From Lachnospiraceae bacterium (GTDB lineage: Bacteria > Bacillota > Clostridia > Lachnospirales > Lachnospiraceae), in NCBI GenBank assembly GCA_016286555.1, contig JAEETA010000003.1, positions 81,556 to 145,555 of the forward strand: DNA of 64,000 nt, written 5' to 3'. Both the position numbers and the translations under genes were made by a program. Shown piece by piece: positions 1 to 23,454 of the stretch (position 1 is the stretch's first letter; every line of letters begins with the position of its first letter). Below the pieces are notes generated by a model. The model saw only the letters and a program-made list of their open reading frames with translations, was not told the origin of the DNA and ran no database searches.

Positions 1-2
1 TT

Positions 3-1637
3 TCCGGGAGAAAGGCATCCCTGGGACTTCTGATCCTGACGGCGTGTGTGTTCTTTACGCCCGGATTTTTTTATCTCACCTTCACCTACGGAAATCTTAT
101 CGGACTGTCCCTGGTAATGAACGCCGTCCTCCTCTTTGAGCGTTTTGCCTCCGAGAAAAAGTGGTGGCAGATGATCACCGCGGTCCTGTGTTGTTATTTC
201 GCAGTGGTGTTAAAGAGCAACTATCTGGTGTTCCTCATCGGCATGCTGGTCTACCTCCTGCTGCTTTTGATAAAACATCGGGAGCTGCGGCTGCTTCTGG
301 GCATGGCCGGGATCGTTCTCGTGATGCTGCTGGAGGATCCCATCGCACGGGGACTCACCAAAGCTGTGACAGGCGTGACGGTTTCGGAGGGTTCTTCCAT
401 GTGGTCCTTCGTGGCCATGGGAATGATGGAGAATCCCCACCGCTACAACGGCTGGCACAACGGCTATGATATCGAGAGCTATCACGGGAATGCCTTTGAT
501 GTGGAGGCACAGGCGACGGAAAATAAGACGAAGGTGGACGAACTGGTGAACTATCTGGTTCACAATCGTGCTTACGCCATCTGGTTTTTCGGCGGGAAAA
601 ATGCGTCTGCCTGGACCAACCCCGATTTCCAGGGCTACTGGCTGAACCGGGCGGAGAGTGGAACGGTGAACGAACCTGCTTATCTCCGGAGGCTTTTTAC
701 CTTGCCGAAGGCTTCCGAACCCTTCTTGAATGCCTATACTTTCCTGATCTATCTGGGAGCGCTGCTGTATGCGCTGCTGGAGCGGCGGAAGTCCCGGGTG
801 GGGTATTTCGCCATGATCACGGTATTCGGTGGATTCCTCTTCCATACCGTGTGGGAGATCAAGGCCCAGTACATGCTCTTTTACTTCCTGTTGCTGATCC
901 CGCTCTTCGTGGTGGGATGGCAGGATGTGGTGATGGCGTTGGAGACGGTGGTCCGGAAGAAACAAGCCACGACTGTATCCGGGAAGCACGATGGAGCACA
1001 GGAGAAAGCGGCGAACAGGACTGCTTTGAAGGATGAGGAGCGCGCAGATGAGGACGGAAAGAACTTCCGGATTCTTGCGATCACCTGCGGCACTCTGGTG
1101 CTGATCACGATTTTGGTTTATCTGCAGCTGATCCCTTCCCTCAACAATCTGGTTGCTCAGAGGGATACGGCATTCTATGAACAGCAGTTGGAGATCTATC
1201 CTTCCGACCGAATGAAGGAAGGCCGTTACAGGGTGATGTCAGCGTCCGGTACGTTTCTGAACTTGGATGCTGCATCAGGACAGGTGCATGCAGGATCTGC
1301 GGATGAGAAACTTCTGCTGACCCATTCTCGCAGTGATGATACTCTCTATATCCGTTTTTCCGACGGATCTGTCATGGAACTGATGAGTGCCGCCGCCGAA
1401 GCAGGGACCGGCGTTGCCGCAGGAGAGGCTTCCGATGAAATGACCCAGCGATGGAACTTTAAGCGGGTATCCGAGCCTCTTTCCGTAGGGGATGCAAACA
1501 CCACCTGCGGGTATCTGCGATACGGCCCCTATAAGGCACTGTCCTGTGATCCCGCAACCGGAGCGGTGACACTGGAATGGTGGAACCTGCAGGACGAGAA
1601 CCAGTTGTGGTATTTCACTGAGTGGGAGAAGCCCTGA
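3..1637 (+). CDS. Polytopic membrane protein, GT-C/GT39-like, with extracytoplasmic beta-rich tail (5' partial)
   Basis: The frame is open to the left edge (codons before the GTG at 48 read in frame), so only the C-terminal part is present. It has several hydrophobic segments in its first half (about residues 15-110 and again near 245-305), then a charged cytoplasmic stretch rich in K/E, one more membrane span (LAITCGTLVLITILVYLQLI) and a soluble tail of about 150 residues. The tail contains repeated aromatic/Gly turns and ends with a Q-x-W-like motif (ENQLWYF), reminiscent of ricin-type lectin repeats. This resembles GT-C family sugar transferases or related cell-envelope membrane proteins of Firmicutes, but the N-terminal catalytic loop is outside the window, so the function is not certain. 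An IS66 copy sits 5 bp after the target duplication that follows its stop codon. Confidence 0.55.
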   Translation, partial: SGRKASLGLLILTACVFFTPGFFYLTFTYGNLIGLSLVMNAVLLFERFASEKKWWQMITAVLCCYFAVVLKSNYLVFLIGMLVYLLLLLIKHRELRLLLGMAGIVLVMLLEDPIARGLTKAVTGVTVSEGSSMWSFVAMGMMENPHRYNGWHNGYDIESYHGNAFDVEAQATENKTKVDELVNYLVHNRAYAIWFFGGKNASAWTNPDFQGYWLNRAESGTVNEPAYLRRLFTLPKASEPFLNAYTFLIYLGALLYALLERRKSRVGYFAMITVFGGFLFHTVWEIKAQYMLFYFLLLIPLFVVGWQDVVMALETVVRKKQATTVSGKHDGAQEKAANRTALKDEERADEDGKNFRILAITCGTLVLITILVYLQLIPSLNNLVAQRDTAFYEQQLEIYPSDRMKEGRYRVMSASGTFLNLDAASGQVHAGSADEKLLLTHSRSDDTLYIRFSDGSVMELMSAAAEAGTGVAAGEASDEMTQRWNFKRVSEPLSVGDANTTCGYLRYGPYKALSCDPATGAVTLEWWNLQDENQLWYFTEWEKP

Positions 1638-13154: not shown

Positions 13155-13544
13155 ATGAGAAAGAACAGTATTAAAAACACAAGGATCAACGGGGAGGTGC
13201 AGAAGGTCTTAAGCGAGATCATCCGCAACGAGATCAAGGACCCTCGCATCAGCCCCTGGACCAGTGTGGTTGCCGTGGAAGTGGCTCCCGATCTGAAGAC
13301 CTGTAAGGCATGGATCTCCGTGCTGGGTTCGGAGCAGGACCGCATCTATACGGAGCAGGGATTAAAAAGCGCAGCTTCCTTCATTCGCAGGGAGCTGGCT
13401 CACACCCTGAATATGCGCTCCACGCCGGAGATCACCTTCCTGATGGACCAGTCCATCGAGTACGGTGTCAACATGTCCCATCGCATCGATGAGGTGATCG
13501 CGGAAGACAACAGCCACCATGTGTCGGAGGAAACGGATGATTGA
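13155..13544 (+). CDS. rbfA: Ribosome-binding factor A
   Basis: 129 aa with the KH-like RbfA fold (VLSEIIRNEIKDPRI ... VEVAPDLKTCKAWISVLG). It is required for late 16S rRNA 5'-end maturation and cold adaptation in other bacteria. It lies 12 bp after infB and its last 8 bp overlap the start of nrnA (ATGATTGA). Confidence 0.95.
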   Translation: MRKNSIKNTRINGEVQKVLSEIIRNEIKDPRISPWTSVVAVEVAPDLKTCKAWISVLGSEQDRIYTEQGLKSAASFIRRELAHTLNMRSTPEITFLMDQSIEYGVNMSHRIDEVIAEDNSHHVSEETDD

Positions 13545-14484
13545 TTTGATCAAGGAATGCGAGGGCGCCCGGACCATCGGGATCAGCGGCCACGTTCGTC
13601 CCGATGGGGATTGCGTGGGTTCCTGCCTTGCGCTTCGCAAATATCTGCTGAACGCTTTCCCCGATGTACAGGTGACGGTCAATCTGCAGACCCCCCCCAG
13701 GATCTTTCATAACCTGGCGGGTTACGAAGAGGTGCAGACGGAATTTCCCGAGCAGCCTCGCTATGATGTTTATTTTGCACTGGATTGCAACAGAGAACGC
13801 CTCGGCCCTGCCGGTGACTATTTTGATAATGCCGTCAAGACCATCAACATCGATCATCACGTCAGCAACACCGGCGTAGGTCAGATCAATGTGGTGGAGC
13901 CCGAGATCAGCTCAACCGGAGAGCTCCTCTATACGCTCTTCGACAAAAAGTATATGGATGCCCAGGTGGCGGAGGCCCTGTATGTGGCCATGATCCACGA
14001 CACGGGCGTGTTCCAGTATTCCTGCACTTCGCCGCAGACCATGCGGATCGCGGCGGATCTGATGGAGTACGGTCTGAACTTCCCCGTGATCATTCAGGAG
14101 ACCTTCTACGAGAAGACCTATCTCCAGGCCCAGATCATGGGAAGGTGTCTGATGGAGAGTGTCCGTTTTATGGACGGACGCTGCATTGTCAGTGCAGTGG
14201 ATCGCAAGACCGCAGAGTTTTACGGCGTACTTCCGAAGGATTACGAGGGCATCGTCAATCAGCTCATCAACATCAAAGGGGTGGATTGCGCCCTGTTTAT
14301 GTATGAGACGGATACCCTGGAGTTCAAGGTGAGCCTCCGCTCTTCCGAAGCGGTGGACGTATCCAAGGTCGCGGAGCATTTCGGCGGCGGCGGACACGTG
14401 CGCGCAGCAGGCTGCACCATGAAGGGTACCTTCCACGACTGCGTCAATAATCTCTCCAAATATATCGCGGAGCAGATGTCATAA
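13537..14484 (+). CDS. nrnA: DHH/DHHA1 phosphoesterase, NrnA-like oligoribonuclease/pAp phosphatase
   Basis: 315 aa, normal NrnA length. Motifs: HVRPDGDCVGS, NIDHHVSN (the DHH motif), and FGGGGHVRAAGC in the DHHA1 domain. NrnA degrades nano-RNAs to mononucleotides and dephosphorylates 3'-phosphoadenosine-5'-phosphate. The start is ATG 13537, preceded by GGAGGAAACG; the track's 13519 is upstream of that site. Overlaps rbfA, as in many Firmicutes. A hairpin with T run follows it, before truB. Confidence 0.93.
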   Translation: MIDLIKECEGARTIGISGHVRPDGDCVGSCLALRKYLLNAFPDVQVTVNLQTPPRIFHNLAGYEEVQTEFPEQPRYDVYFALDCNRERLGPAGDYFDNAVKTINIDHHVSNTGVGQINVVEPEISSTGELLYTLFDKKYMDAQVAEALYVAMIHDTGVFQYSCTSPQTMRIAADLMEYGLNFPVIIQETFYEKTYLQAQIMGRCLMESVRFMDGRCIVSAVDRKTAEFYGVLPKDYEGIVNQLINIKGVDCALFMYETDTLEFKVSLRSSEAVDVSKVAEHFGGGGHVRAAGCTMKGTFHDCVNNLSKYIAEQMS

Positions 14485-14560: not shown

Positions 14561-15562
14561 ATGCAGACAACTGAGCAATACAACGGAATCATCAATGTTT
14601 ATAAAGAGCAGGGCTTTACCTCCTTTGACGCAGTAGCGGCACTGCGTGGGATCCTCCACCAGAAGAAGATCGGTCACACCGGAACTCTGGATCCCATGGC
14701 CACCGGCGTCCTGCCTGTGTGTCTGGGCAAGGGTACGGGCGTGGTAGAGCTCCTGACGGACTGGGATAAGGAATATGTGGGGGAACTTCTGACAGGACTG
14801 TCAACAGACACCCTGGATGTGACGGGGCAGCGCACGGGAGGAGATCCCGCACTGGCAGCAGCCCTTTCCCCGGAACAGATCCGTGAGGCCGTGTTTTCCT
14901 TCCTGGGAGGATATGATCAGATCCCGCCCATGTACTCCGCCCTGAAGGTGGACGGTCAGCGCCTCTACGACCTGGCCCGGAAGGGACAGGAGGTGGAGCG
15001 AAAGCCCAGGCCTGTGAAGATCCATGAAATGGAGATCCTGTCGGAGGGAAGTGAGGAAATCACTTCGGAATCGGGAGAGACCTTTACCGTACCCACGGTG
15101 CGGTTCCGGGTGCTTTGCTCCAAGGGAACTTACATCCGGAGTCTTTGTGACGACATCGGAAACAAACTGGGCTGCGGCGGCTGCATGAAGTCGCTGGAGC
15201 GCACGGCAGTAGGGCCCTTTACTCTGGAGAACGCAAAGCGGTTGAAGGAGATCGAAAGTCTCCGGGATGCGGCGTTATCGCGGGGAGAGTTCCATCATCG
15301 GGATAATCGGGGAAATGACTGCCCCCCGGGAGAAGTGCTGGGAATCCTGCCCATCGACCTGTTGTTCCGGGATCTGCCGGAGGCAAGGGCGCTTCCCGCA
15401 GGGGAAAAACTCCTGCAAAACGGAAATCCGGTGAAGGCATCGCTGCTGCAGGGATGTCCGGATGCAGAAAGGCTTCGCATCTATCTGGAAGATGACACCT
15501 TTGTCGGAATCTTCCGAAAGAGCGGCGAGTTGTACAAGCCGGAGAAGATTTTTTTGATCTGA
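14561..15562 (+). CDS. truB: tRNA pseudouridine(55) synthase TruB
   Basis: 333 aa. It converts U55 in the T-loop of tRNAs to pseudouridine. The catalytic motif KKIGHTGTLDPMATGVLP contains the essential Asp. KGTYIRSLCDDIG is also diagnostic. The C-terminal extension (about 240-333) carries a PUA-like end, longer than in some Firmicutes. GGAG lies 5 nt before ATG. Confidence 0.95.
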   Translation: MQTTEQYNGIINVYKEQGFTSFDAVAALRGILHQKKIGHTGTLDPMATGVLPVCLGKGTGVVELLTDWDKEYVGELLTGLSTDTLDVTGQRTGGDPALAAALSPEQIREAVFSFLGGYDQIPPMYSALKVDGQRLYDLARKGQEVERKPRPVKIHEMEILSEGSEEITSESGETFTVPTVRFRVLCSKGTYIRSLCDDIGNKLGCGGCMKSLERTAVGPFTLENAKRLKEIESLRDAALSRGEFHHRDNRGNDCPPGEVLGILPIDLLFRDLPEARALPAGEKLLQNGNPVKASLLQGCPDAERLRIYLEDDTFVGIFRKSGELYKPEKIFLI

Positions 15563-15589: not shown

Positions 15590-18500
15590 ATGAGATATAA
15601 TGCGTTTATCAGTTACAGACATTCGGAACTGGATATGTTCGTGGCAAAGCAGGTGCACCGGAGACTGGAGACCTTCCGTGTCCCCCGCAAGGTGCAGAAG
15701 GCCACGGGCGTCAAGAATATCAAGAGGGTGTTCCGCGACCAGGAGGAGCTTCCCATCGGAAGTGACCTGGGGGATAACATCAGCACCGCTTTGCAGGAAT
15801 CGGAATTCCTGCTGGTGATCTGCTCTCCCAGAACCCCTCAGTCCTACTGGGTTCAGACGGAGATCAAGACCTTCATCTCCATGCACGGCAGGGAGAATGT
15901 GCTGGCTATTCTCATTGAGGGCGAGCCCAACGAGTCCTTCCCGCCGGAGCTGCTGACGGATGAAAAAGGAAATCCCGTGGAGCCTCTGGCAGCGGATGTC
16001 CGCGGCAAGGATATGCGGGAGGTGAAAAAGAAGCTCCGGACGGAGATCATGCGTCTGGCAGCACCTCTGCTTCACTGCAGTTATGACGATCTGCGGCAGC
16101 GCCACAAAGAGCGTCAGATGCGGAGAGCCTTTGCTTTTATGACTGCGGGCCTGGTGCTGGCATCCGGCATTGCGGCAGCAGCTATCTACACTGCGAAGAC
16201 GGTGCATGATGCGGCCGTAAAGGTGGAAGCGGCTTACGAAGAGACCCAACGTGCGTACGAGGCGGAGCAGGAAAGTCTTCGTCTGCAGAAGATCGCTTAT
16301 CGCGAACAGCTCATCAGCCAGTCCAAGGTCCTGGCGGAGACCGCAGAGGACCTGCTGAAGGAAGGCGACCGTATGCGGGGTATCGCCGTAGCATTGGCAG
16401 CCCTTCCCTCCGAGGAGAATGACAGACCCTATGAGCCCAGGGCAGAGATGGCCCTGAATGAAATGCTCTATGCATACAATTCCGGCGCAGAGCTGGAGCC
16501 GGACCGGATCGTATCCATGCCTCTTCCGGTGAGTGATTTCAAGCATAACCCGAACGGGGATAAGATCGTAGTCAGCGATAATTCCGATGAGGTGGCTGTT
16601 TTTACCACCGTTGACGGAAAGAAGCTCTTTAGCGTACCTGCTCCTCTGGATGACAGAAATGACACCTATGATCTGCGGGATATGCTCATGACGGGAGATG
16701 ACACCACTGTCATTGCGTATGAGAACAGTGTTTCCGCTTATGATTTGGAAGGAGAGCTTCTCTGGACCTTCTCCTATTCGGAATTGGTCGAGGGTCTGCG
16801 CTATTCTTCCGAGCAGGATCTCATTGCCATTGTGTCCCAGCGCACCATCGATTTTGTCAGACCCGGTGGCAGGATTGCCTGCACTTATAACGTGCCGGAG
16901 GAGGAGCCCAGAACCTTTATCGATGCCTGCGGTTTTTCCCCGGATGGAAAGACCTTTGCCTGCACCTTTTATAAGACTTCCTTCTCTCTGTACTCCGATG
17001 CGGAGGATACGGATGAGCGGGGGCATGTAGCCATAGTGGATACCGCAAGCGGTGAGGGCAGGATCGTCCGTGTATCCGCGGGGTATCTTGCTGAGTTATC
17101 CTTTGTGGATAACGAGAGATTTGCCGTGGCTGTGGCTGAGGAAGGAGAGCGGTTGCTCCTGACCGGAAACGGCAGCATCGATTGTGTGAATACGGTCTCC
17201 GGGGCCACGCTCTGGAGTTCCCCTTACCAGTTCAATGCCAATGTGCTGCAGAGCAGCAGTCTGGAGATGTTCTGCAGAGAGATCGAGGATGAAAACGGCA
17301 ACAAGGGAAATAAAGTCGACATCACGGTTGACAGGAATTTCTATGATTACGATGCCGCTGACGGAAAGCTCTGCTTTACCTTTGAGTGCAGTTCTCCCAT
17401 CACCGGACACAATGCGGCACCGGGAAACAGCATCCTGGCCATGTTTGAGCGGGACGGCACCATCGATTATCTGGATGCGGAAGCCGGAAGCGTTTATTCG
17501 GACAACAGAGACAATACGGATCTGACCACCCTGAAGGGCGCTGCCCGGAAGGGATGCCTCGTGATCATGGGGTACAAGTCCCCCGATATCGTCCTCCTTC
17601 GTTACATGGAGGGAGAGGGTAAGACCGAGATCGGATATTACGAGGATTACCTGTCCAATGTGGAATTCAGCGAGGACGGCACTCTGATCCTTCTGGATTA
17701 CGGTCGGAAATACGAAGTCCTGGATGCGCAGACCTACGAGACGGTCTGCAGCGGCGGTGACGGCGAGGAACATGTGAACTTTGTCAGTCTGACGCCTGAT
17801 GATCAGATCCTTCTGTTCCGGGGAAGCTTCCTGGAGCGGATCGATCCCGTCACCGGAGAAAGCGTGAAGCTGGATGCGGATGACTATGAGTTTGCAGAGA
17901 CCATCTATTATCCCGAAGTGGAGCGTCTGGTGTGCTTCGGCAGAGAGTCGGCTGTCATCGACACGAAGGAGATGCAGTACGTCTACACCGATATCCCGGA
18001 TCTGTATGCGGAGTACTACACCCATACCATGGCGGGACTGGGCGGTAAGGACAGTGAGATCCTCTGCATGATGCGCAGCGACAATACGCTCCACATCGTA
18101 AATCTGAAGGATGGGTCCGAACTGGTGGTGGACCGGGAGGAGTTAAAGACTCTGTCAGGCTATGACCACAAGGAGGGCATGACCGTGAGCCGTGACGGAA
18201 GCAAGGTGGCTTTCTTCTGTCTGGACGGCTACGCAAGAGTGCTGGATACTTCCGACGGACACGAGGTGGCAGCCATTCCTTTCACTGCCAGAAGAGAGAT
18301 GTTCCTGGGATTCTCCCCCGACGGAAGCAAACTGATGCTGCAGGGAGATGACTACTATTTCCGCGTCTTCGATCTGGAGACCGGAAAGCTGGTCTACCTG
18401 TCGGATACCCAGTTCTATACCGTTGCTCAGGCAAAATATGAAGAGGAGTCCGGGATTATCATTCTCCGCGCAGGCGTGTATCTGTATGTGTTTGACGCGG

Positions 18501-18697
18501 ATTCCTACGGATGTATTCTGGCGGTTCCTTATGGCAAGGACATGAATCTGAAGGCAAAGCAGGTACTCACGGTGTCCAGGCACACGCTCTACTCCTTCCC
18601 GTATCGTACGCTGGAGGAGCAGATCGAGCTGGCTCATGAGACACTGGGAGACTACGTGCTTTCGGAGGAGAGCAGGATACAGTTAAACGTGGATTAA
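15590..18697 (+). CDS. TIR-domain / transmembrane / beta-propeller protein
   Basis: 1,035 aa counted from ATG 15590 (MRYNAFISYRH), where TIR domains normally begin; ATG 15578 is possible and adds 4 residues. Residues 1-135 are a TIR domain: YNAFISYRHSE, FRDQEELPIGSDL, LLVICSPR, and SYWVQTEI, where W87 and E91 match the WxxxE of NAD+-cleaving TIR domains. A hydrophobic span follows (about 179-202), then a charged coiled coil (204-250). About 730 residues of repeated blades (FSPDGKTFAC-, ASDG-, WSSP-like turns) form a WD40/PQQ-like beta-propeller. The topology suggests a membrane sensor with TIR and propeller on opposite sides. It lies 15 bp after the truB stop codon and before a second DHH gene. 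A role in signalling or defence is inference. Confidence 0.85.
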   Translation: MRYNAFISYRHSELDMFVAKQVHRRLETFRVPRKVQKATGVKNIKRVFRDQEELPIGSDLGDNISTALQESEFLLVICSPRTPQSYWVQTEIKTFISMHGRENVLAILIEGEPNESFPPELLTDEKGNPVEPLAADVRGKDMREVKKKLRTEIMRLAAPLLHCSYDDLRQRHKERQMRRAFAFMTAGLVLASGIAAAAIYTAKTVHDAAVKVEAAYEETQRAYEAEQESLRLQKIAYREQLISQSKVLAETAEDLLKEGDRMRGIAVALAALPSEENDRPYEPRAEMALNEMLYAYNSGAELEPDRIVSMPLPVSDFKHNPNGDKIVVSDNSDEVAVFTTVDGKKLFSVPAPLDDRNDTYDLRDMLMTGDDTTVIAYENSVSAYDLEGELLWTFSYSELVEGLRYSSEQDLIAIVSQRTIDFVRPGGRIACTYNVPEEEPRTFIDACGFSPDGKTFACTFYKTSFSLYSDAEDTDERGHVAIVDTASGEGRIVRVSAGYLAELSFVDNERFAVAVAEEGERLLLTGNGSIDCVNTVSGATLWSSPYQFNANVLQSSSLEMFCREIEDENGNKGNKVDITVDRNFYDYDAADGKLCFTFECSSPITGHNAAPGNSILAMFERDGTIDYLDAEAGSVYSDNRDNTDLTTLKGAARKGCLVIMGYKSPDIVLLRYMEGEGKTEIGYYEDYLSNVEFSEDGTLILLDYGRKYEVLDAQTYETVCSGGDGEEHVNFVSLTPDDQILLFRGSFLERIDPVTGESVKLDADDYEFAETIYYPEVERLVCFGRESAVIDTKEMQYVYTDIPDLYAEYYTHTMAGLGGKDSEILCMMRSDNTLHIVNLKDGSELVVDREELKTLSGYDHKEGMTVSRDGSKVAFFCLDGYARVLDTSDGHEVAAIPFTARREMFLGFSPDGSKLMLQGDDYYFRVFDLETGKLVYLSDTQFYTVAQAKYEEESGIIILRAGVYLYVFDADSYGCILAVPYGKDMNLKAKQVLTVSRHTLYSFPYRTLEEQIELAHETLGDYVLSEESRIQLNVD

Positions 18698-18700
18698 ACA

Positions 18701-18857
18701 GGGGCGAAAAATCATTGTGCGATCATGCTTGCATGAATCGCGCGGTGAATTTGAGCCCCGTCGACCATGAGGAAGAAGTCATATCCTGCATTGCGGGATA
18801 TGACGGGATTCCGAATGGGCGTAGGATGGCGGGAGTTCCGCAGGAACGAAGCCATCC
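18701..18857 (+). ncRNA. Structured intergenic element, copy 1
   Basis: 157 nt directly after the TIR gene. Hairpin 1: closing stem GGGGC/GCCCC around an inner palindrome with loop CATG-CTTG-CATG. Hairpin 2: TCATATCCTGC / GCGGGATATGA (18779-18803), followed by GGGATTCCGAATG. Hairpin 3 (18824-18857): GGATGGC, internal loop GGGA, GTTCC, GCA, GGAAC, internal loop GAA, GCCATCC. Copy 2 at 23140-23330 keeps all three hairpins and loops but with different stem sequences, so base pairing is conserved. No ORF is supported here. It could be a small RNA, a 3'-UTR element or a mobile structured repeat. Confidence 0.65.
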
Positions 18858-18899
18858 GTGTTAAGATTAAGACGAGACATACATCAGGGAGGAAAACAG

Positions 18900-20471
18900 A
18901 TGAAGCTGACAGATCTTTCACCTTTTAATGAGATCGTGATCCAATGTCATGACAATCCGGATGCGGATGCACTGGGCTCCGGCTTTGCGCTTTTGCATTA
19001 TTTTTCCTCTCTGGGGAAAAATGTGCATTTCATCTACAGCGGCAGAGCGAAGGTGACCAAGAGCAACTTAAAACTCATGATCCAGGAACTGGAGATCGCG
19101 GTCACCTATGTGAAGGATGAGGTTGCCTTTGCCAAGGCCGTGGCTGCGTGGCGCGGCATGGAAGGCACCGTAACCGACGGGCCCGAACTGCTGTTGATGA
19201 CAGATTGTCAATACGGTGAAGGTAATGTGACGAAGTTCCCGGCGCAGACCGTTGCGGTGATCGATCACCATCAGGTGACGGGCTCCCTGCCGGAGCTGCA
19301 CGAAGTGCGCAGCAAGAACGGCAGCGCCTGCACCATCGTCTGGGATATGATGAAGCAGGCAGGTTACGATTTTGGTCGTGACTGGAGAGTGTCCACTGCG
19401 CTGTACTACGGACTTTTGACGGATACCGGGAACTTTGCGGATCTGCGGCATCCGCTGGACAGAGATATGCGGGAAGCGCTGGACATTGATGCTACCCTGA
19501 TCCGTCGCCTCTGCAATTCCAACCTGTCTCTGGAGGAGATGAAGGTGGCAGGTGTGGCCCTCATCAGTAATGAGTACCACGAGGATCACCGCTATGCCAT
19601 CATTCAGTCCGAGCCCTGTGATCCCAACATTCTGGGACTCATCAGCGATTTTGCCCTTTCCGTGGACACGGTGGATATGTGTCTGGTGTACACCGTGCTT
19701 TCCGACGGTATTAAATTCTCCGTCAGAAGCTGCATCCGGGAGGCGAAGGCAAGCGAGCTGGCAGCTTACCTTTCTGCGGACATCGGTTCCGGCGGCGGCC
19801 ATCTGGACAAGGCAGGCGGATTTTTGCAGACAGCCCTGATCATCGAGAAATACCCGGAGTATGATTTTTCCCAGAGCAACCGCTTCCTGCAGATCATCCG
19901 CGAGGTGCTGCGGCAGCGCATGAGCGAGTACTTCGACAGCTTCGATGTCATCGACGTGAAGAAGGATAAGCTGAATGAGGATGAGGTGGAGCTCTATCAC
20001 AAGGTGCCCATGACGGTTGGCTACGTGAAGGCTTCCGATGTGGCTCAGGTGGGCTCCGATATCGTGATCCGTACCCTGGAGGGGGACATCCATCTGACGG
20101 TGGAGCCGGATCATTACATCATGATCGGCATCAAGGGAGAGGTGTATCCCATCCACGAGAAGAAATTCCTGGCAGGGTATGAAAAGCTGGACGAGGTCTA
20201 CAACCTGCAGCTGGAGTATGAGCCCAGGATCACCAAGGGCAAGGAGAGCATCCTGCTGCTTCCCTACGCAAAGCAGTGCCGCACCACGGGCAAATCCCAG
20301 ATCCTGGCCCGGAAGCTGACAAAGCCCATGAAGGTCTTTACCGAGTGGGACAGAGAAGGCTATATGTATGGCAAGGTGGGCGATTACGTGGCCTGCCGCA
20401 TGGACGACCACAGCGATATCTATATCGTTGACGGCGATATTTTTGCAAACAGTTACGCCCCCGGTGAATAA
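18900..20471 (+). CDS. DHH-family phosphoesterase with C-terminal extension
   Basis: 523 aa; a typical NrnA is about 320, so there is a ~200-residue extension. N-terminal DHH motifs: CHDNPDADALGSG, LLLMTDCQYG and AVIDHHQVTG; DHHA1-type GSGGGHLDKAGG at about 305-320. The extension (about 345-523) contains two similar beta-rich stretches (SDVAQVGSDIVIRTLEGDIHL, EGYMYGKVGDYVACRMDD) and ends in DGDIFANSYAPGE. All catalytic Asp/His appear present. The substrate may be a short RNA or cyclic dinucleotide-derived pNpN by family, but is unknown. ATG 18900 follows CAGGGAGGAAAACAG; the track start is upstream GTG. It lies 18 bp before ribF. Confidence 0.85.
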   Translation: MKLTDLSPFNEIVIQCHDNPDADALGSGFALLHYFSSLGKNVHFIYSGRAKVTKSNLKLMIQELEIAVTYVKDEVAFAKAVAAWRGMEGTVTDGPELLLMTDCQYGEGNVTKFPAQTVAVIDHHQVTGSLPELHEVRSKNGSACTIVWDMMKQAGYDFGRDWRVSTALYYGLLTDTGNFADLRHPLDRDMREALDIDATLIRRLCNSNLSLEEMKVAGVALISNEYHEDHRYAIIQSEPCDPNILGLISDFALSVDTVDMCLVYTVLSDGIKFSVRSCIREAKASELAAYLSADIGSGGGHLDKAGGFLQTALIIEKYPEYDFSQSNRFLQIIREVLRQRMSEYFDSFDVIDVKKDKLNEDEVELYHKVPMTVGYVKASDVAQVGSDIVIRTLEGDIHLTVEPDHYIMIGIKGEVYPIHEKKFLAGYEKLDEVYNLQLEYEPRITKGKESILLLPYAKQCRTTGKSQILARKLTKPMKVFTEWDREGYMYGKVGDYVACRMDDHSDIYIVDGDIFANSYAPGE

Positions 20472-20489: not shown

Positions 20490-21410
20490 TTGGAGATCAT
20501 TACCGGAACGGAAGAATTTCATATTGAAGCGGACACGGCGGTGGCCATCGGAAAATTCGACGGCGTGCACCTGGGACACAGGCGCATTCTGGAGGAGATC
20601 CTGAAAAAACAGAGCGAAGGCCTCCGATCCTGTGTGTTTACCTTTGATCCGTCCCCGGCGGTGCTCTTTGGCGGTGGTGATGTCCGGGAACTCACCACCC
20701 GGGAGGAAAAGCGGCTCCTGCTGCAGCGAATGGGTGTGGAGATCCTGATCGAGTATCCCCTGAGCTTTGAAAATGCGGCGACGCCCCCGGAGATCTTTGT
20801 CCGGGAGATCCTGATCGAGCGCATGGGTGCAGGCTTCCTGGCTGCGGGCCCGGACCTGTCCTTCGGCGCAGGCGGCAGAGGAAATCTGGAGCTCCTGCGG
20901 AAAATGGCACCGGAAAGCGGTCTGGAGATCAGCGAGATCCCCAAACTTCTCTTTGAGGACGGGGGAGAGACGAAGGAGATCAGTTCTTCCCTGATCCGTT
21001 CCTTTGTGGAAGCGGGCCGGATGGAAGAAGCGGGAGAGTGCCTGGGCACGCCCTATCCCATTCTTGGAAAGGTGGTGCAGGGTGCGCATCTGGGACATAC
21101 CCTTGGTTTCCCCACAGTGAATGTGGAGATTCCGGAAGAAAAACTCCTGCCGCCCTACGGCGTGTACACTTCCGTGATGACGGTGGACGGACGTGAGTAT
21201 CAGGGTATTACCAACATTGGCTGCAAGCCTACGGTGGCTTCCGGCATACGCCCTCTCGCGGAAACCTACCTCTATGATTTTGACGAGGAGATCTACGGGA
21301 AGGAAGTGCTGATCGGCCTGAAGGCTTTCAAGCGTCCGGAGCGGAAGTTCCCCGATGTGGAAGCCTTAAAGGAGCAGCTGCGGCAGGATATTGAAAACTG
21401 CAGGCCCTGA
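20490..21410 (+). CDS. ribF: Bifunctional riboflavin kinase / FAD synthetase
   Basis: 306 aa, standard length. The N-terminal nucleotidyltransferase domain has AIGKFDGVHLGHRRIL and the ISSSLIR motif; the C-terminal riboflavin kinase domain has GAHLGHTLGFPTVNV and PPYGVYTSVM. It makes FMN and FAD from riboflavin. The start is TTG (GAGG 6 nt upstream); no in-frame ATG fits better. ribF next to truB and rpsO is a conserved bacterial arrangement, here with three extra genes inserted. Confidence 0.95.
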   Translation: MEIITGTEEFHIEADTAVAIGKFDGVHLGHRRILEEILKKQSEGLRSCVFTFDPSPAVLFGGGDVRELTTREEKRLLLQRMGVEILIEYPLSFENAATPPEIFVREILIERMGAGFLAAGPDLSFGAGGRGNLELLRKMAPESGLEISEIPKLLFEDGGETKEISSSLIRSFVEAGRMEEAGECLGTPYPILGKVVQGAHLGHTLGFPTVNVEIPEEKLLPPYGVYTSVMTVDGREYQGITNIGCKPTVASGIRPLAETYLYDFDEEIYGKEVLIGLKAFKRPERKFPDVEALKEQLRQDIENCRP

Positions 21411-21469: not shown

Positions 21470-23131
21470 TTGCGAAAGAAAGCGTACGGAAAAGCGGTGG
21501 TCCGGGGCGTGCTGCTGGCAGCGGCGATGATGCTGTCAGGGTGCGGAGCGGGCGGATCTGCAGGATCGGATGAAGGCGCCGTGAGCACGGAAACGGCGCA
21601 GACAGAGAGCGAATCGGAAAATACGGCCTCGGGGGAAGCCTCGCAGCCGGCAGAAGGAACAAAAGAGCAGGAGGATGTTTCAATGGACTATGCAGAGCTT
21701 TTCAAGGATGTGAAGGTGGCACAGAGCTTCAAGGGAGCGACAAACTGCAACCCCATCATCGAGCAGCACTACGGCGCAGACCCTTATGCGCTGGTGTACG
21801 GCGACGAGGTGTATTTTTACATGACTGCCGATGCCTATGAGTACGATGCCAAGGGAGAGATCTCGGAGAATACCTACGGCAAGATCCGCAGTCTCTATGT
21901 GGTTTCTACGAAGGATATGATCAATTTCACCGACCACGGCGAGATCACCATTGCGGGCGAAGGGGGAGCAACTACCTGGGCACACAATTCCTGGGCCCCT
22001 GCGGCAGCGTGGAAGGAGATCGACGGTAAGCCCAAGTTCTTCCTGTATTTTGCGGACAACGGCGGCGGCATCGGCGTGGTTACCGCTGACAGCCCCGTGG
22101 GACCTTTCCGGGACGAGCTGGGTCACGGCCTGATCCGCAGAGATATGGAAAATTGCGGTAATGTGGAGTGGCTCTTTGATCCCGCAGTGCTGGTGGATGA
22201 TGACGGCAGAGCTTACATCTACTTTGGCGGCGGCGTGCCGAAAGGAAAGGCCTCCCATCCCATGACCGCAAGATGCGCGGAGCTGGGGGAGGACATGATG
22301 AGCCTGAAGGGGGTACCCGAGGTCATCGATGCGCCTTACCTCTTTGAGGATTCCGGCATCCACAAGTTCGGTGATACCTATTATTACACCTACTGCAGCA
22401 ATTTCAGCGTGGACGCGGAAGGCACCGCGGAGTACGGTTTTGAGAACGGCGAGATCTGCGTCATGGAGAGCAAGAGTCCCCTGGGACCCTTCACCTTTAA
22501 GGAGCGGATCCTGAAAAATCCCGGCGCATACTTCGGCGTGGGCGGCAACAATCACCATGCAGTGTTTGAATTCAAGGATCAGTGGTATATCACCTACCAC
22601 ACCCGTATCCTGGAGACCGCGCAGGGCATTCAGAAGGGCTATCGCAGCACCAGCGTCGAGCCCATCAGCATCGCTGAGGACGGCACCATCGGCAACATCG
22701 TCATGACAAAGAACGGCCGCAAGCAGGTGGGTGCGCTGAATCCCTATGAGACCATTAACGGTGCCACCTTCGCAGTGATGGGCGGTGTGGATACCGCTCC
22801 TGCGGATGAAGTGAGCAAGGAGTACGGTTGCGGCAATCTGCTGCTGACCGCCATCGATACCGGAGATTTCGTAATGCTCCGGGGCGTGGACTTCGGCGAT
22901 AAAGGTGCTACGAAGATCAAAGCTACCGTCCGCACGAATGGCCAGACTGGCGCGGTCCGCATCACCACCCGTTTTGCCACCGGCGATGTGGCAGGATACC
23001 TTCCCATCAGCGGAGAGGGAGATACGGTGGTCTGCGAGGCGGAGCTGGATGCACCTCTGACGGGGATCCAGGATGTGTACTTCACCTTCAGCGGAGAAGG
23101 ATACGAGATTTTGGACTGGGTCTTTGAATGA
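21470..23131 (+). CDS. Secreted GH43-like glycosidase lipoprotein with C-terminal CBM6-like domain
   Basis: 553 aa with a lipoprotein signal peptide (lipobox LSGC at about 22-25) and a Ser/Thr/Glu-rich linker. Residues ~85-400 form a five-bladed propeller: NPIIEQHYGADPYALVYGDEVY supplies the catalytic base Asp, FDPAVLVDDDGRAYIYFGGG the middle Asp, and FEDSGIHKFGDTYYYTY the Glu proton donor. Residues ~430-553 form a CBM6-type jelly roll (VMLRGVDFGDKGATKI). GH43 enzymes cut arabinose or xylose side chains. It would sit on the outer membrane face of this Gram-positive cell. Start TTG with AGGAG upstream. Followed by structured element copy 2. Confidence 0.85.
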   Translation: MRKKAYGKAVVRGVLLAAAMMLSGCGAGGSAGSDEGAVSTETAQTESESENTASGEASQPAEGTKEQEDVSMDYAELFKDVKVAQSFKGATNCNPIIEQHYGADPYALVYGDEVYFYMTADAYEYDAKGEISENTYGKIRSLYVVSTKDMINFTDHGEITIAGEGGATTWAHNSWAPAAAWKEIDGKPKFFLYFADNGGGIGVVTADSPVGPFRDELGHGLIRRDMENCGNVEWLFDPAVLVDDDGRAYIYFGGGVPKGKASHPMTARCAELGEDMMSLKGVPEVIDAPYLFEDSGIHKFGDTYYYTYCSNFSVDAEGTAEYGFENGEICVMESKSPLGPFTFKERILKNPGAYFGVGGNNHHAVFEFKDQWYITYHTRILETAQGIQKGYRSTSVEPISIAEDGTIGNIVMTKNGRKQVGALNPYETINGATFAVMGGVDTAPADEVSKEYGCGNLLLTAIDTGDFVMLRGVDFGDKGATKIKATVRTNGQTGAVRITTRFATGDVAGYLPISGEGDTVVCEAELDAPLTGIQDVYFTFSGEGYEILDWVFE

Positions 23132-23139
23132 TGATACAA

Positions 23140-23330
23140 GGGTCATAAGTCAAAACTGCGAGTTATGCTTGCATAAACGAGCATTTTGACTTAAGGACCC
23201 GAACAAACATGAGCAAGTAGCAATTTCCTGCGAAGGCAGGAAATTAGCGGATTGCGAATGCATGACAACAGAGCGCAAAGCGGTCTGTTGTAGTGTAGAA
23301 TTGCGAGAGTTGCGCAGCAACGGAGCAATT
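23140..23330 (+). ncRNA. Structured intergenic element, copy 2
   Basis: 191 nt after the GH43 gene. Hairpin 1: GGGTC and AGTCAAAA pair with TTTTGACT and GACCC around TTATG-CTTG-CATAA. Hairpin 2: AATTTCCTGC / GCAGGAAATT (23222-23245), then CGGATTGCGAATG. An extra hairpin ACAACAGA/TCTGTTGT (23265-23291) is present only here. Hairpin 3 (23299-23330): AATTGC, GAGA, GTTGC, GCA, GCAAC, GGA, GCAATT. The same loops as copy 1 with compensatory stem changes. CATGAG before hairpin 2 is also shared. Confidence 0.65.
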
Positions 23331-23454
23331 TGTTGTATCAGATAAAACAGAAACTGCACCGCTCGTACCGTTTCCGCAATGCCCTTATTATAGTGAAGAA
23401 ACGGAAACGGAACGGAAACGATTAAGTGACCGTAAAATGTGGATTTTACAGGGG
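23331..23454. other. Intergenic stretch before the NlpC/P60 promoter
   Basis: No gene. It contains CGTTTCCG opposite a short tandem CGGAAACGGAACGGAAACG (about 23402-23420), which could pair with it, then leads into the promoter dyad. Nothing else recognised. Confidence 0.4.

Follow-up and report, generated by a model that had tools for sequence, protein, structure and literature searches.

Recurrent genomic pairing of TIR genes with a DHH-DHHA1 phosphoesterase gene in Lachnospiraceae and other Clostridia

Results

Gene content of the locus

The DNA analysed here, a stretch of 64,000 nucleotides (the window), belongs to a Lachnospiraceae assembly of 2.93 Mb in 83 contigs. Its closest named relatives are Lachnospiraceae MAGs, of which RUI526 shares the gene order. 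The features of the locus are listed in Table 1. The gene at its centre, intact and coding for a single protein, is denoted TIRp; the TIRp of RUI526 is 86% identical.

Table 1. Features at the TIRp locus; positions are those of the window unless given as TIRp residues.
Feature	Position	Strand	Description
NrnA-like gene	13519-14484		second DHH-DHHA1 gene, between rbfA and truB; usual housekeeping copy
truB	14561-15562	+	upstream neighbour of TIRp
TIRp	15590-18697	+	TIR-TM-double-propeller receptor-like protein, 1035 aa
TIRp, TIR domain	residues ~1-130		
TIRp, linker	residues to 175		
TIRp, transmembrane (TM) span	residues 181-199		
TIRp, coiled coil	residues 206-258		
TIRp, hairpin	residues 261-298		
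TIRp, tandem WD40-like propellers	residues 306-1002		
Clostridiales-1 structured RNA (RF01699)	18693-18866	+	occupies most of the TIRp-DHH2 gap; 109 bits (cut-off 48)
DHH2	18900-20471	+	DHH-DHHA1 phosphoesterase, 523 aa; found repeatedly beside TIR genes
ribF	20490-21410	+	3' of DHH2; not a conserved partner
Glycosidase gene	21470-23131		secreted, family-43-like; 3' of ribF, 5' of an NlpC/P60-like gene and rpsO; named by sequence only
RF01699, further copy	23132-23340		83 bits (cut-off 48)

Translation of TIRp likely starts at ATG 15590, since AAGGGAATGGA, 7 bases 5' of this codon, makes a well-spaced ribosome-binding site, whereas the alternative in-frame ATG 15578 lacks one. Counted from the truB stop (15562), this start gives the spacing of 27 bp that had been reported in the first-pass annotation of this DNA. 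The same annotation located the gene between truB and ribF. It does adjoin truB, and the two are probably co-transcribed in this lineage; on its other side, however, the DHH2 gene intervenes before ribF.

As the first-pass annotation also stated, neither a Thoeris nor a CBASS partner is adjacent, the neighbours being truB, DHH2 and ribF. No ThsA or other known Thoeris effector lies beside TIRp, and PADLOC gave no ThsB/ThsA match for either TIRp or DHH2. TIRp is devoid of the SAVED or STING domain of a CBASS TIR effector, and the SAVED_TIR model matches it only over the TIR part. A signal-sensing effector was not found among the genes beside the TIRp-DHH2 pair. The implied absence of any partner was nevertheless mistaken, the adjacent DHH phosphodiesterase gene being one that recurs beside TIR genes.

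Searched against the genome, the sequence between TIRp and DHH2 gives 11 matches; its folding z-score is -7.8. Clostridiales-1 RNA was considered as a component of the system and rejected, as it is missing at nine other pair loci; it is a dispersed element of this genome, outside the conserved pair. Promoter and terminator matches within the TIRp-DHH2 pair were no better than those in shuffled sequences.

Architecture of TIRp

The N-terminus of TIRp matches the Pfam models TIR_2 (38.1 bits, cut-off 28) and ThsB_TIR (31.4 bits, cut-off 21.2), and several WD40/PQQ-type propeller profiles match the remainder. In PDB alignments, the Glu of the SYWVQTE motif falls on the catalytic-position Glu of the plant TIR AT1G72930, the bacterial TIR 7uxr and flax L6. 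Across 52 homologues, conservation of W87 and E91 is no lower than 95%. The WxxxE-type glutamate noted in the initial description is thus conserved and aligned with TIRs of known structure, and the domain is a predicted NADase.

TIRp contains one hydrophobic span, K/R-rich on its TIR side. Of the 46 homologues in which a span was detected, 44 have such an excess of K/R residues on the TIR side; 6 of the 52 TIRp proteins fall below a simple hydropathy threshold. The C-terminal part is acidic (145 D/E versus 71 K/R). By the positive-inside rule, TIRp would be a type II protein (N-in, C-out), with its propeller region outside the cytosol.

An AlphaFold2 model, built from six sequences and of moderate confidence (mean pLDDT 67.6), comprises about 60 strands besides the TIR fold, the TM helix, the coiled coil and a helical hairpin. 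Both the single membrane span after the TIR domain and the coiled coil had been proposed before and are recovered here. The propeller fold attributed to some 730 residues is likewise found, in the profile matches as well as in fold matches of this moderate-confidence model. These residues were first described as one propeller; they are better read as two, because the Foldseek matches of the strand region are tandem WD40 double propellers, including those of Apaf-1 and Utp21. The conserved active-site Glu, the single span, the positive-inside topology and the large acidic propeller part opposite support the earlier reading of TIRp as receptor-like.

DHH2 resembles known nucleotide phosphodiesterases

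The N-terminal 330 residues of DHH2 form DHH and DHHA1 domains, with DHH motifs I-IV and GGGH. Across 83 members, residues D21, D23, D102, D122-H123-H124, D175 and GGGH (298-301) are conserved to no less than 96%. Although the DHHA1 profile scores only 18.7 on the window copy, below the Pfam cut-off of 25.9, the fold and GGGH are present nonetheless. The closest solved folds to the structural model, which is best over these 330 residues, are TmPDE, GdpP, NrnA and DhhP (E down to 7e-19). The C-terminal domain (~170-190 aa), modelled at low confidence, is matched by no Pfam model in the window copy and weakly by PGDYG (E 0.18) in the copy at locus L037.

With these four enzymes, the substrates of which are c-di-AMP, pApA and nanoRNA, DHH2 shares, over its N-terminal 330 aa, the fold as well as every metal-binding and GGGH motif residue. 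It differs in its extra C-terminal domain, in its recurrent TIR neighbour and in scoring far below the cut-off of the NrnA NCBIfam equivalog (20.7 versus 350 bits). It is also distinct from GdpP, as its DHH domain begins at the N-terminus and TM helices, PAS and GGDEF domains are missing. DHH2 is a putative nucleotide phosphodiesterase, for which a TIR product or its derivative is the predicted substrate. To our knowledge, no DHH enzyme acting on TIR products is known.

TIRp and DHH2 in the genus and elsewhere

None of the 31 genomes examined in the genus lacks a TIR-TM-propeller homologue; these belong to a ~1050-aa or a ~800-aa class and are in some cases cut by a contig end. In most of these genomes the ~1050-aa TIRp goes together with DHH2. 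truB, on the other hand, adjoins TIRp in only three (the window's genome, G012 and G020) and is not a conserved partner. The translation cluster, or conserved truB-ribF setting, which the first-pass annotation emphasised, is therefore rejected as the functional one. Elsewhere in the genus, the pair lies at prfA/CarD-like/thrS, at the S10 ribosomal operon (in convergent orientation) and at hisS/aspS; in other genera it lies at clpX/lon/engB, trpE, scpA and elsewhere, gene names at these sites being read from protein sequences and not from annotation.

The other four TIR genes of the window's genome were tried as paralogues of the system and rejected, since they have other architectures (a phosphatase-like part or repeats) and no DHH2 neighbour. 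The ~800-aa class (L072, L074-L081, L086-L088) was rejected as a pair member, since DHH2 does not adjoin it at any locus read; a lipoprotein-like gene precedes several of its members (L072, L077, L079). In genome G058, two TIR genes of this kind, coding for 963 and 268 aa, adjoin in tandem (L148, 6815-10583). One DHH2-adjacent TIRp, in genome G052 (L110, 8458-10356), appears broken by a stop, perhaps as a pseudogene or through an assembly error.

TIR genes are linked to DHH2

In Lachnospiraceae as in other Clostridia, TIR genes adjoin DHH2; the pairs are spread over many chromosomal sites and come in three orientations. Over the loci, 21 pairs are convergent, 17 are DHH-first tandems, 8 are TIR-first tandems and none is divergent. 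Since loci fetched through TIRp favour pairs, the count that matters is the one which starts from DHH2 matches in 200 evenly drawn genomes of the family. There, 17 of the 32 full-length DHH2 genes have a TIR neighbour, 16 of them directly adjacent and one with a single gene between. TIR_2 genes number about one to seven per TIR-bearing genome, so that by chance a TIR neighbour would be expected for well under 1% of genes. Even at 1%, the binomial p is ~5e-26; with no more than seven events counted as independent, it is still 3e-8. A class-wide sample added 18 DHH2 genes, 8 of which have a TIR neighbour. Genome by genome, DHH2 goes with the ~1000-aa TIRp in 16 of 18 cases, compared with 33 of 200 overall (Fisher p = 9e-13). 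In the tree built from 83 DHH2 proteins, presence of a TIR neighbour switches 12 times, at least seven of them on well supported branches; these switches may be gains or losses.

The TIR partner is not always TIRp. Genes for TIR-TM-DUF6273 proteins occupy its place at three loci (L095, L102, L139), and at a fourth (L104) the partner is a short TIR protein of the soluble kind. The best evidence for a link between TIR chemistry and DHH2 is that different TIR subfamilies and ectodomains stand beside the same phosphoesterase.

About half of the DHH2 genes have no TIR neighbour, as in the arrangement purH-DHH2-glnS; evidently, DHH2 is not exclusive to TIRs and has at least one TIR-independent use. 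G718, from another class, has DHH2 with no obvious TIR neighbour, and at L045 and L054 TIRp is found without a DHH2 neighbour. At L121-L125, L090, L099, L101 and L106, DHH2-like proteins are encoded next to purH and/or glnS, and a TIR gene is missing; the copy at L121-L125 is a second, more distant DHH2 paralogue. A published description of a TIR-DHH pair was not found in the open-access article texts searched.

TIRp is under purifying selection

Between the window and RUI526, the TIR domain of TIRp has a dN/dS of 0.047, its TM and coil region one of 0.042 and its propeller one of 0.124; these values come from one genome pair and are compatible with episodic diversification of the propeller. 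The housekeeping neighbours give 0.096 (truB) and 0.125 (infB) in the same comparison. TIRp is thus maintained by purifying selection in the same way as its housekeeping neighbours. Together with conservation of the pair in Lachnospiraceae, this suggests that the pair serves routine signalling and not only phage defence.

Discussion

The notable finding of this work is the TIR-DHH2 pair. TIRp itself is a real, conserved gene, whose first description was correct apart from its context.

We propose that a membrane TIR receptor makes an NAD-derived nucleotide signal which DHH2 removes, an explanation we put forward with a little less than even confidence. The double WD40-like propeller of TIRp, a type II single-span receptor, would lie on the cell-wall side and sense an envelope or extracellular cue. 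The coiled coil would relay this cue and cause the cytosolic TIR domains to cluster, and clustered TIRs would cleave NAD+ by means of E91, yielding an ADP-ribose-derived or related nucleotide signal. DHH2, as a metal-dependent nucleotide phosphodiesterase, would remove this signal or its downstream product, and so set a threshold and end the response. Alternatively, DHH2 might convert or respond to the TIR product rather than end the signal.

There is a precedent for such an enzyme in MAD, the membrane-associated DHH-DHHA1 nuclease of Sulfolobus, which clears an immune second messenger (PMC7854544). MAD differs from DHH2 in that its substrate is the CRISPR messenger cOA4, it is itself membrane-bound and it has no TIR. 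Gut bacterial TIRs, including ones from Lachnospiraceae (not necessarily of the TIRp subfamily), yield ADPR and cADPR variants in vitro (PMC9092222). The one known enzyme degrading 2'/3'cADPR is a phage glycosidase, before which no protein degrading 2'cADPR or 3'cADPR was known (2026 preprint, PMC13232231).

Several known systems resemble TIRp in part. Like Thoeris (ThsB and ThsA), it has a conserved active-site Glu, could make an ADPR-derived signal and matches the ThsB_TIR model. In contrast to Thoeris, it has a membrane anchor and a propeller, its partner is a DHH phosphodiesterase, and no ThsA, SIR2-SLOG, Macro or caspase effector is adjacent. With animal Toll/IL-1R-type receptors it has in common a single span, a cytosolic TIR and a large recognition domain opposite; the polarity is reversed (N-terminal TIR), however, and propellers replace LRR or Ig, so that the likeness is confined to layout. 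STAND/WD40 proteins such as Apaf-1, and the WD40 kinase PkwA, carry C-terminal WD40 propellers as a probable sensor as TIRp does, but TIRp has a membrane span and a TIR in place of a STAND NTPase or kinase.

Antiphage defence is the role of many characterised bacterial TIRs. TIRp could likewise be a NADase that responds to phage at the envelope and kills by NAD+ depletion in abortive infection, with DHH2 as accessory antidote or damage amplifier, and the weak PADLOC matches of its TIR part would agree with this. We consider such a role unlikely for this gene: TIR-TM-propeller homologues are found in every genome of the genus and in housekeeping neighbourhoods, not in defence islands, the dN/dS values of the TIR domain and propeller (from the one genome pair) are unlike those of a fast-turnover immune receptor, and DHH2 is without a PADLOC match. 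Many TIRs work by assembly (PMC7075850), and the TIR of TIRp might be a scaffold whose clustering recruits partners, DHH2 being a separate enzyme with a shared role such as turnover of c-di-AMP or nanoRNA during envelope stress. That enzymes of c-di-AMP and pApA are the nearest folds to DHH2 would fit. Yet a pure scaffold has no obvious need for the nearly invariant Glu and Trp at the catalytic position, which makes this account decidedly improbable.

Bacterial WD40 propellers are often cytosolic. Given the fold match to Apaf-1 and the weak hydrophobic span in several homologues, one may imagine that a re-entrant or reversed span anchors TIRp, its propeller sensing an intracellular ligand in the manner of STAND-WD40 proteins. 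One clear span, the nearly general K/R excess on the TIR side and the acidity of the C-terminal part speak against it, and we regard this topology as very unlikely. An incidental linkage, finally, in which genome organisation holds together two genes common in Lachnospiraceae, is highly improbable. Half of the DHH2 genes do lack a TIR neighbour, and linkage within clades is partly simple inheritance; the frequency of TIR neighbours in the unselected sample, however, is far from the chance expectation, and the TIR families, sites and orientations differ among pairs.

If a membrane TIR receptor and DHH2 do act as we propose, the pair may belong to a core, non-mobile bacterial Toll-like pathway, in which TIR receptors with swappable ectodomains (double propeller, DUF6273) make an NAD-derived messenger and each has a dedicated DHH phosphodiesterase. 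This generalisation is a tentative one, and we hold it to be possible but doubtful. TIR signals connect bacterial, plant and animal immunity. The TIR-DHH2 pair points to an unstudied make-and-break signalling pair, and a conserved host phosphodiesterase encoded beside many TIR genes is a candidate for the means by which bacteria limit their own TIR signalling. Should this be true, TIR signalling would have in DHH2 its first known off-switch of host origin.
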